From NCBI GenBank assembly GCA_016841745.1, contig JAENYO010000002.1:372001-436000 (forward strand): a stretch of 64,000 bases of DNA. The letters are read 5' to 3'. Each line of letters starts with the position of its first letter. Position 1 is the stretch's first letter. A model generated the notes under the pieces. It was given only the letters and a program-made list of their open reading frames with translations. It ran no database searches and had not been told where the DNA came from. The DNA comes from Acetomicrobium hydrogeniformans. Lineage in GTDB: Bacteria; Synergistota; Synergistia; Synergistales; JAFGMB01. The position numbers and the translations under genes are program-made. Below are positions 11,229 through 14,963 of the stretch, piece after piece.

Positions 11229-12179
11229 TCAGTACTCTGTCCCAATATCTATCAAGTTAACCATTTCTCCCTCGCCATCCAGGTAGACCTTCAGATTATG
11301 CCTTATTATCTCCAGAGCCTTTTCCAGGTACCTGACAGATTCTCCACAGATATGAGGAGTAATGAAGACATTCTCCATTTCCCATAGGGGGCTATCGTAA
11401 GGAAGGGGTTCCGTGTAGAAGACATCTGAAAAAAATGCCCTGAGTCTGCCAGTTCTGAGAGCCTCAACAAGATCATCCTCATTGACTGTCTTTCCCCTTC
11501 CCATATTAATAAAACAGCATGTTTTCCTCATAAGATCAAAGCACTTGCGATCAACGATCTTCTCTGTTTCTGGAGTGTGGGTTAGAAGATTTATCACATA
11601 TTGACTCTGACGGAAAATCTCTTCCATCTCCAAAGAAACATAGATCCTGTCAACATATTCTACTTTCTCTGCTGTCTGTTTTGTTCCTATTACCCTCATG
11701 CCCATAAGTTTGGCCTTTTTAGCAATTTCCCTGCCTATCGCTCCAAGGCCGAGGATGCCCACAGTAGCACCTTCTATCTGGTCCTGTGCAGGAGAACGAT
11801 CCCACTTCTTCTGCTGTTTGTTTCTTATTATTGCAGGGAAGTTTCTTGCCATCATTATCATTGCCGCAATTGCATATTCAGCCATATGTACCCGGTGAAT
11901 TCCCTTTCCGCTTGTAAGTATGATCCCCATATCCTTCATTTTTTCCAAGGGAAGGTCGTCGATCCCGGCTCTTATGGACTGAACCCATTTGAGGCGAGGG
12001 GCCACGTCGATCATTTTTTCTGTAAGTTTTATGGTTATGAATATTTCCGCATCCTTTATTTTTCCCTCTATATTCTCCAGGTCACTGCAAAACTCGAAAT
12101 GTATACCAGGAAACTCCTCGACCAGAGGCATGGCATCATTTTCAGTGTAATAGGCTGTATAAAATAAAACTTTCGTCAA
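11229..12179 (-). CDS. D-isomer-specific 2-hydroxyacid dehydrogenase
   Basis: 316 residues, normal for the family, which reduces 2-oxo acids to D-2-hydroxy acids with NAD(P)H. Rossmann motif TVGILGLGAIGREIAKKAK near residue 135-150, substrate-binding/catalytic Arg region FINMGRGKTVNEDDLVEAL near 225, catalytic Glu in DVFYTEPLPYDSPLW near 255 and catalytic His in VFITPHICGE near 275. I place the start at TTG 12179 because AAGGAG lies 8 bases upstream; a longer open frame to 12254 has no ribosome site. Substrate not predictable. Divergent from the UGA-containing thioredoxin-like gene. Confidence 0.88.
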   Translation of the reverse strand: MTKVLFYTAYYTENDAMPLVEEFPGIHFEFCSDLENIEGKIKDAEIFITIKLTEKMIDVAPRLKWVQSIRAGIDDLPLEKMKDMGIILTSGKGIHRVHMAEYAIAAMIMMARNFPAIIRNKQQKKWDRSPAQDQIEGATVGILGLGAIGREIAKKAKLMGMRVIGTKQTAEKVEYVDRIYVSLEMEEIFRQSQYVINLLTHTPETEKIVDRKCFDLMRKTCCFINMGRGKTVNEDDLVEALRTGRLRAFFSDVFYTEPLPYDSPLWEMENVFITPHICGESVRYLEKALEIIRHNLKVYLDGEGEMVNLIDIGTEY

Positions 12180-12309
12180 ATTGCTCACTCCTTCATCGTG
12201 ATATCTTTCAAACTGGTTCTCAATACATACTAAGGGTATAATTAATAATATCATTATCAGCCTGAAGACGAAACGTTTAATGAAGGATTCGAAGAAAGGA
12301 GATACAAGT

Positions 12310-12642
12310 GTGAGTGCTCATAAAATAAAGGTTTATATGGAGAAGGCAAGATCCGCTTCCAGCTGAGCTTCCATGCCTTATAGCAAAGAGGATAGAAGTA
12401 CCTCTCCTATGGAAGTGAACCGTGGGTTCGCGGCTGATCTGATGGGTAAGATACGGGAAAAATACGAGGATCGGATAAGGATAGACATATATGATCCCAG
12501 ATGTCCTTTATGGATCTTTGATCTCATAAGGTTCAATGTAAGAGCCACCGAAGTTGTCTGGGTGATGGATGGTAAATTTCTGGCCAGGGGGATTCCCTCC
12601 TGGAACGAACTGGATAACAGGATCGAAGAGTTGACAAAATAG
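12310..12642 (+). CDS. thioredoxin-like small selenoprotein (in-frame UGA at codon 19)
   Basis: Read through one in-frame TGA (12364-12366), the frame from GTG 12310 to 12642 gives 110 residues. AAGGAG lies 8 bases before the GTG, and the next in-frame ATG (12373) has no ribosome site, so translation should begin upstream of the TGA. The predicted order strand (HKIKVYMEKA), loop with Sec19 (SASS-U-ASMPYS), helix (VNRGFAADLMGKIREKY), strand (RIRIDIYDP), helix, strand (EVVWVMDGKFLARGIP) and helix (SWNELDNRIEEL) is that of a thioredoxin fold, with Sec at the active-site loop after the first strand. A bulged hairpin follows the TGA (separate entry). I recall thioredoxin-like selenoproteins such as SaoT of organometal-related systems as a family to compare; identity is not proven. 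The ArsB/NhaD-type transporter follows 207 bases downstream. Confidence 0.7.
12367..12416 (+). promoter_or_regulatory. SECIS-like hairpin after UGA of thioredoxin-like gene
   Basis: Outer stem 12368-12374 with 12409-12415 (7 bp perfect), inner stem 12387-12391 with 12401-12405, a bulged A at 12392, then T393-A400 and A394-T399, closing a GAAG loop at 12395-12398. A bulge below a small loop beginning with G, 29-32 bases after the UGA, fits known bacterial SECIS rules. Confidence 0.55.
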
Positions 12643-12849
12643 AAACAGGAGGCTGGACAAAGGAGTTTTATGCTCTGAATGCGATTAGGGAGGAGTAATC
12701 GACAGAGGAAGAGATTTATATTGCCAAAATGTAAGAATCTTATTGTAAAGGTTGAAATTTTCCAAATAAGTAGTACTATGTGATGCCTCGGTTTGCATAA
12801 GCCGATTATTGTATATTGTATATTAAATTTGTAAGGAGATGGCTCCGCC
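12643..12849 (+). other. gap between thioredoxin-like gene and transporter
   Basis: AT-rich 207 bases. A possible promoter (TTGCAT near 12794, TATATT or TTGTAT about 17-20 bases later) precedes the transporter start, whose GGAGATGG ribosome site is at 12836-12843. No terminator-like hairpin is seen, so read-through from the selenoprotein gene is possible. Confidence 0.4.
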
Positions 12850-14121
12850 ATGAACAGTTCACAATGGATAGGACTCCTGATATTTCTGGGAACATATATC
12901 CTGATAGTAAGCGAGAGGGTTCACAGACTTAAAGCCGCTCTTCTCGGAATATCTGCAGTCCTTCTGATCCAGCTTGTTGAACAGACAGATGCCTTCTCCT
13001 ACATAGACTTCAATACGATCGGTCTACTCATAGGCATGATGATACTGGTGGGGATCATCCGGAAAACGGGAATGATACAGTACATAGCAATAAAGGCAGT
13101 CAAGGTGAGTGCGGGTAATCCCTGGCTGCTTATGGTTATGCTGTCAGGACTTACTGCAATTATTTCTGCCCTGATTGATAATGTAACAACGGTTCTTCTT
13201 ATAGGTCCCATAGCTCTTGCAGTTGCTGAAGTTCTGAAAGTGGATCCCGTACCATTTATCTTTGCCGAGATATTCTCTTCCAACATTGGAGGGACTGCTA
13301 CTCTCATAGGAGATCCGCCAAATCTTCTCATAGGCTCTGCCGCCGGCCTTTCCTTCAATGACTTTGTGCTTAACCTTGGACCTGCTGTTCTTTTATCCCT
13401 TGCAGTAATGTACGGAATCCTCTATTTATGGTATGGAAAAGAACTTCGTCCTTCTGATCTTACAATCCACATAGCCGAAAATTTCAAAGAACCGAAGGGT
13501 CCGCAAAATATAGGGCTTACTAAAAGGGTTTTACTTGTAATGCTCCTTGTCCTTACTGGTTTTATGTTCCATGGAAGACTTGGTATCGAAGCAGCGACCA
13601 TTGCCCTTGCCGGAGCTACCCTTGGCCTTCTGGTATGTCCTGTGGATGTAGAGGAAATTTTAAAGGATGTGGACTGGGTAACAATTCTATTCTTTTCATC
13701 CCTCTTTATGCTTGTAGGGACCATAGAGCATCTTGGCCTTATCAGACTCCTGGCTGATCTTATGGTTACTGTAGTGGGCAGTCATCTGAAGATCCTGTCT
13801 GTCCTGCTGATATGGAGTTCCGGTATCATCTCTGCAATAGTGGATAATGTTCCATATACGGCAGCAATGATACCCCTCGTAAGGGATATAACTTCCCTTT
13901 CTGGTTTCCAGTCAGACTTTCTCTGGTGGTCTCTTGCTCTGGGTGCGTGTCTCGGAGGGAATGGAACGCTTGTCGGTGCGTCGGCAAATCTGGTAATGGC
14001 AGGTATCGCAGAAAAGGATGGCATAAAAATTGATTTCAAGGCCTTTCTTGGCCGAGGTTGTGTAATGCTCTTCTTCACCCTTCTGGTTTCAACCCTTTAT
14101 GTCTTTTTCCGTTACCTCTGA
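12850..14121 (+). CDS. ArsB/NhaD superfamily (SLC13-like) ion/anion transporter
   Basis: 423 residues, about 11-12 membrane helices. Family hallmarks: the repeated inverted halves each with a helix hairpin and an NVTT/NVPYTAAMIPL motif (SALIDNVTTVLLIGP near residue 105 and SAIVDNVPYTAAMIP near 335) and the GGTATLIGDPPNLLIG and GGNGTLVGASANLV segments near 150 and 375. These are typical of the ArsB/NhaD/YbiR group, which exports arsenite or exchanges Na+/H+; the actual ion is unknown. No ArsA, ArsC or ArsR is near. Its position between two candidate selenoproteins suggests a redox-linked export task; this is inference from context. Confidence 0.85.
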   Translation: MNSSQWIGLLIFLGTYILIVSERVHRLKAALLGISAVLLIQLVEQTDAFSYIDFNTIGLLIGMMILVGIIRKTGMIQYIAIKAVKVSAGNPWLLMVMLSGLTAIISALIDNVTTVLLIGPIALAVAEVLKVDPVPFIFAEIFSSNIGGTATLIGDPPNLLIGSAAGLSFNDFVLNLGPAVLLSLAVMYGILYLWYGKELRPSDLTIHIAENFKEPKGPQNIGLTKRVLLVMLLVLTGFMFHGRLGIEAATIALAGATLGLLVCPVDVEEILKDVDWVTILFFSSLFMLVGTIEHLGLIRLLADLMVTVVGSHLKILSVLLIWSSGIISAIVDNVPYTAAMIPLVRDITSLSGFQSDFLWWSLALGACLGGNGTLVGASANLVMAGIAEKDGIKIDFKAFLGRGCVMLFFTLLVSTLYVFFRYL

Positions 14122-14273
14122 TCTTACCCTTTAGCAATATTTGAAAGCTTACTCTCTTTGTTTCTGAAGATCGTTGATCAATTTTTTGAAAACGACATTC
14201 TGATTCTTTCCGAAAAAACGATAGTGATGTACAATTCTAGTGAGTTAAAGTATTGCGAAAAGGAGGAGTGTTG

Positions 14274-14963
14274 ATGAGTTTGCAGGATAAACTTGATGTA
14301 ATAGCGGCAGAATCAAAAAAGAGATTCCCTGAGAATGCACTGAGGGTGCTTGGTGAATTTCGAAAAGAGCTTGGTGATAGTGGGCTTAAGGAGAGAATTC
14401 CTGGAGAAAACAGACTTCTCCCCCCCTTTGAACTGGAAGATGAGGAAGGCAGATCCGTTTCCTCTGAAGATTTTCTTGCCAAGGGCCCGATGGTCCTGAC
14501 ATTTTACAGAGGGAGATGGTGACCCTATTGCCGCCTGCAGTTGCAGGCTTACGAAGAGATATATCTCAGCATAAAGGAGCTTGGTGCAAGCCTCGTAGCT
14601 GTTTCTCCCATGCTTTCTGGTTTTATCAGTGACTTCAGGGAGGAACTTGGTCTTACATTTCCCATACTCTGTGACAGGTCGAACGGGTATTCCTCAAAGC
14701 TGGATCTGACCTATATCATTTCTAACAATGTTCGGGAGGTTTATAAACAATCGGGTATAGATCTTCCATTCTATAATGGTAATGAAAGCTGGGATCTACC
14801 TGTTACTGCGACTTTTATCGTTGATATTGAGGGTATTATCAGGTTTGCATGGAAGGAAACGGATCATACAAAAAGGCCTGAACCGCAGGATATTGTCGAC
14901 TTTCTTAAAGAAATGAAAACCAATGGGTTCTTCCCAGGCCAGACACATTTGCACAAACCCTGA
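14274..14963 (+). CDS. peroxiredoxin-like selenoprotein (AhpC/TSA family, UGA at codon 83)
   Basis: One in-frame TGA (14520-14522) interrupts an otherwise continuous frame of 229 residues. The surrounding peptide FYRGRW-U-PYCRLQLQAY aligns exactly with the FYRGxWCPYC active site of Prx-like AhpC/TSA proteins, so the UGA stands where the peroxidatic Cys is expected, giving a UxxC motif. Downstream sequence keeps family features (SPMLSGFISDFREELGLTFPILCDRSN, and the strand VTATFIVDIEGIIRFAW, quoted as segments). Predicted to reduce peroxides or other electrophiles in the cytosol using the Sec. ATG 14274 chosen over an earlier TTG because AAAGGAGGAG is 5-8 bases upstream. A SECIS-like hairpin follows the UGA. 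The alternative, two broken halves, is unlikely because no frameshift or decay is visible. Confidence 0.88.
14533..14548 (+). promoter_or_regulatory. SECIS-like hairpin after UGA of peroxiredoxin gene
   Basis: Perfect 6-bp stem GCCTGC/GCAGGC around loop AGTT (14539-14542). The loop starts 17 bases after the UGA and has G at its second position, as in bacterial SECIS elements. Confidence 0.65.

Follow-up and report, generated by a model that had tools for sequence, protein, structure and literature searches.

A GTG-initiated reading frame in the window, the whole 64,000-nt stretch of Acetomicrobium hydrogeniformans DNA analyzed here, starts at 12310 and runs through a single in-frame TGA at codon 19 to a TAG stop at 12640-12642. 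The question raised by this locus is whether the UGA ends translation, is read as a standard amino acid or is decoded as selenocysteine (Sec), and what the function of a full-length protein would be. The features that bear on the answer are the following, all on the forward strand:

12310..12642 (+): predicted selenoprotein gene encoding 110 aa with a thioredoxin-like fold and Sec at position 19; neither NCBIfam nor Pfam names the family

12295..12301 (+): ribosome binding site AAAGGAG, identified by sequence 8 nt ahead of the GTG

12364..12366 (+): UGA codon, predicted Sec19; UGA or Cys in 50/50 aligned homologues

12367..12416 (+): putative bacterial SECIS from folding, with an upper hairpin at 12387-12405 above an outer stem in which 12367-12374 pairs with 12409-12416

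12493..12501 (+): Asp-Pro-Arg (residues 62-64), invariant in the alignment, where the second core strand ends

12502..12504 (+): Cys65, the sole Cys in the window copy and the proposed resolving thiol for Sec19

12595..12597 (+): Pro96, invariant in the alignment, in the RG(I/V)P motif ahead of the last helix

The sequence agrees with the preliminary description of a GTG start with a strong ribosome site, one in-frame UGA at codon 19 and a natural stop. That description also held that no start with a ribosome site gives the protein without read-through. The contexts of the in-frame starts at 12337, 12373, 12409 and 12415 were inspected and a comparable ribosome site was absent from each, including the starts past the UGA. 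Mechanical annotation would most likely call the 89-aa ORF from ATG 12373, which leaves out the active residue together with strand 1. ORFs antisense to the gene (window 12378-12851, with similar ones in relatives) were discounted as shadows of the coding strand.

A translated search of 297 genomes with the read-through protein gave relatives in 62, many of them with exactly one in-frame TGA. Fifty family sequences were aligned, and the column of codon 19 contains UGA in 30, Cys in 20 and no other residue, which bears out the expectation of Cys or Sec homologues at this position. Beyond this column, invariance is confined to D-P-R and one Pro. A family alignment of 11 rows used as the query found 12 Synergistales loci, and the single window protein used as a direct query recovered zero relatives in the viral or genome contig collections. 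The loci bearing taxon names belong to the Synergistales or Synergistaceae. Outside the phylum, matches were found in five of nine genomes from a single small phylum, with Cys at the column wherever the sequence was read. Comparison of the window gene with its nearest relative gave a dN of 0.28 and a dS of about 3.0, which is near saturation, and dN was far below dS upstream and downstream of the UGA alike. The frame far exceeds what chance would give, because all 50 homologues have UGA or Cys at the column and dN is low on either side of the UGA. The window copy is diverging rapidly, with a branch of 1.21 on the family tree, and it lacks the Cys that adjoins the site in its closest relatives. 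A subclade within the Cys forms (L057, L059 and L060) has a separate Sec in the motif GUGCG, and the tree therefore contains at least two Sec/Cys exchanges.

The source genome encodes tRNA-Sec (77.9 bits), SelB (361.8), SelA (556) and SelD (327.6), all scoring above their cut-offs, so each of the four components of the Sec machinery named in the preliminary description was found. The selA gene adjoins selB, and selD carries an in-frame TGA of its own. SelB scored above the cut-off in 24 of the 28 Sec-form genomes tested, and the 4 misses are assemblies that are 65-86% complete. The presence of SelB has no power to separate Sec from Cys forms because most Cys-form genomes have SelB too.

The same genome contains a second family copy (L046:4004-4330; G000:C2:56605-56925) that also has UGA in the Sec position, plus an additional in-frame TGA in a column that is Trp in nearly all members. 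Decay, an error in the sequence or a second Sec would each account for the extra TGA. A D-2-hydroxyacid dehydrogenase gene adjoins both copies (window 11229-12254, - strand; L046:2491-3462, + strand); it is divergent at one copy and upstream at the other, an arrangement that could be due to chance. An assembly error at 12364 was considered and is excluded because independent genomes and the second copy carry UGA at that column.

The possible decay of one of the two genome copies (C2:56605-56925), marked by its second in-frame TGA, and the rapid evolution of the window copy would suit a UGA that is an ordinary stop or a nonsense mutation, leaving a pseudogene or an 89-aa protein from 12373. This reading is very improbable given that UGA occupies the same column in 30 of the 50 family sequences with Cys in the rest, and that dN stays far below dS on either side of it. 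Initiation at ATG 12373 would also proceed without a ribosome site and would drop strand 1 and the active residue. Recoding of UGA to Trp or some other standard amino acid takes its support from the UGA at the Trp column of the second copy. We give this reading almost no credence, since the homologues have Cys or UGA and never Trp at codon 19, and the genome contains complete Sec machinery with a selD that itself has an in-frame TGA. The comparative sequence evidence indicates that 12310-12642 almost certainly encodes a selenoprotein, and SelB and tRNA-Sec would decode UGA 12364-12366 as Sec.

A hairpin directly downstream of the UGA may help Sec decoding. In the bacterial SECIS model, a hairpin with a G early in the apical loop lies about 16-37 nt after the UGA. 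The bulged hairpin with a G-starting loop noted earlier is present in the window copy; its apical loop, GAAG at 12395-12398, begins 28 nt past the UGA. The folding energy compared to shuffled sequences gave z = -1.47, and 14 of 200 shuffles fold equally well. The hairpin by itself is no evidence because its energy is only mildly better than that of the shuffles. The best G-loop hairpin averaged -11.9 kcal/mol at the expected place in 30 Sec genes, and the means were -8.3 and -5.8 kcal/mol in windows 60 and 120 nt further along the same genes. The Cys genes averaged -10.4 kcal/mol at the matching place, which is not clearly weaker than the Sec genes and attributes much of the hairpin signal to shared coding sequence. 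Convincing covariation was not found by RNAalifold and pair counts in 16 Sec sequences, and no SECIS family in Rfam matched. The hairpin is compatible with a SECIS and is neither distinctive nor proof of one.

Two AlphaFold models (pLDDT 85.2 and 87.7) have a beta-alpha-beta-alpha-beta-beta-alpha core, and their Foldseek neighbors are mostly thioredoxins (probability about 0.93-1.0, best E = 1.4e-3, TM about 0.5-0.55). A thioredoxin-like fold is supported by these predictions, as is the placement of Sec after strand 1. The residue is not part of a UxxC motif at the start of helix 1: AlphaFold places it in an inserted beta-hairpin that links strand 1 to helix 1, where the local pLDDT is about 60-75. 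A CxxC or UxxC motif is absent from the 50-sequence alignment, which contains a single invariant U/C. A profile search of PDB sequences gave only weak matches, mainly to RNA-free RNase P (E = 3e-4) over 38 columns that exclude the Sec, and this was judged to be a chance match.

No model in NCBIfam or Pfam names the family, and the searches gave weak thioredoxin matches only. At E <= 0.01, TIGR00411 is the sole NCBIfam model to match any of the 50 members, and Pfam gives nothing for the window protein at E <= 0.1. The MJ0307-type thioredoxins of TIGR00411 share the fold, and six of the 50 members match this model weakly (best E = 0.0011), but these thioredoxins carry CxxC and the window family has none. 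Classical thioredoxins have CxxC or UxxC, whereas this family has only the one invariant U/C. Brachyspira Sec.1 and Sec.2 are small thioredoxin-like selenoproteins described as redox-active disulfide protein 2, PF13192 (PMC5330540). They resemble the window family in small size and thioredoxin-like fold, in having Cys homologues, and in a Sec that is not part of a CxxC motif. The Sec of the Brachyspira proteins lies in a short N-terminal extension before the thioredoxin domain, in contrast to its location after strand 1 inside the domain in the window family. PF13192 (Thioredoxin_3) matches two of the 50 members weakly (E = 0.0026), and by this Pfam model the window protein falls outside the Brachyspira group. 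The table of 119 selenoprotein families in a 2026 review contains no match among the entries that could be compared (PMC13188914). The tabulated proteins are alike in having Sec in place of a catalytic Cys, and an adjacent CU pair is given for other families such as SaoC, SaoL and MbdU (PMC13188914). Aminobacterium sp. MB27-C1 was included in the deep-Sep study (PMC12013277). The family appears to be uncatalogued in NCBIfam, Pfam and the 2026 review table, and single members may already be annotated in RefSeq. The kind of protein, a thioredoxin-fold selenoprotein with Cys homologues, is already known.

Membership in SaoT (NF040730), the Sao-cluster selenoprotein with a thioredoxin-like fold, had been raised as an open point. 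SaoT is given as a UxxC selenoprotein (PMC13188914). Both proteins are small thioredoxin-like domains, and both families are single-domain selenoproteins with Cys forms. A diverged SaoT is nevertheless an extremely improbable identity for the window protein. The SaoT model has no match in the source genome at E <= 0.1 (curated cut-off 65 bits) and scores 112-127 bits at other genes in five relatives; G004 has both families as separate genes. The SaoT of those relatives bears the motif N-T-C-P-C-C, which is missing from the window protein with its lone U/C and DPR. BLASTP produced no alignment between the window protein and SaoT, the hhalign probability was 6%, and a Sao-type ABC transporter gene was not recognized among the adjacent genes scanned. 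By model score, motif, BLASTP and hhalign, the protein is not SaoT. The SaoT genes of the five Synergistales relatives (L066-L070) are stop-free, and the L066 gene lies beside a permease-like ORF.

The possible partner thiol of Sec varies among clades, occurring as CU, UC, UGC or a Cys after DPR. In roughly half of the Sec forms, a Cys and the Sec stand side by side as a pair. The adjacent Cys is replaced by Ser in the window copy, and Cys65 (DPRC) is the only Cys left. Of the 30 Sec rows in the alignment 24 have DPRC, and none of the 20 Cys rows does; this association may be due to shared ancestry because there are only two changes on the tree.

The proposed mechanism starts with Sec19 as a single nucleophilic selenol near the conserved Asp-Pro-Arg, which may lower the Sec19 pKa or bind an anionic substrate. 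Oxidized Sec19 would then be resolved by a nearby thiol. The resolver in the window copy would have to be Cys65 or an external thiol because Cys65 is the sole Cys, and we put the chance that it is Cys65 at somewhat under even. A redox enzyme with a selenol nucleophile is the likely identity of the protein, and our best guess is that it acts in the cytosol as a peroxide or disulfide reductase. The absence of UxxC and the adjacent Cys-Sec pair in about half of the Sec forms would also suit a selenoprotein that does not undergo redox cycling and instead acts as a carrier or sensor, its Sec or Cys binding a soft metal, metalloid or selenium species. A CitMHS/ArsB-like transporter is the next gene downstream in the window; however, a 207 bp gap with a terminator-like site separates the two genes and the pairing is not conserved. 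In the Cys forms the site frequently offers just one Cys, which is poor for metal binding, and the window copy has lost the adjacent Cys. We consider a carrier or sensor unlikely. The redox explanation taken as a whole, in which a Sec-decoded UGA lies in a small thioredoxin-like domain that acts through a selenol mechanism, is quite likely to be correct.

A broader and more tentative proposal is that the one catalytic selenol of this uncatalogued family sits in a hairpin inserted into the thioredoxin fold and has no fixed resolving partner. The partner thiol would have moved among the CU, UC, UGC and post-DPR Cys positions, and Sec/Cys exchange would have taken place at least twice. If this were true, the family would be a natural series for the rewiring of a selenol active site. 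With paired Sec and Cys lineages and a shifting partner Cys, the family makes it possible to test why Sec is retained. Because annotation systematically truncates or misses selenoprotein genes, this unlisted family, with its dozens of Sec and Cys members, genuinely enlarges the bacterial selenoproteome. The Synergistota are a selenoprotein-rich phylum, and annotation errors in many of its genomes would be put right by a model of this family.

Neighborhood clustering found no conserved operon across the family. An EFR1-type ferredoxin gene lies upstream of the family gene at six loci of one Synergistaceae subgroup (L087, L089, L090, L091, L093 and L095), where another neighbor resembles a Fur-family regulator. 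A different Synergistaceae subgroup has AFOR and phosphate-transport neighbors. A second selenoprotein gene occurs 1.6 kb downstream in the window (14253-14963, + strand), with a likely start at ATG 14274 and a UGA at 14520-14522. Its peroxiredoxin-like product matches a SelL-related redox model weakly (38 bits, cut-off 120). The motif is RWUPYC (UxxC), and four relatives of this gene also have one in-frame TGA.
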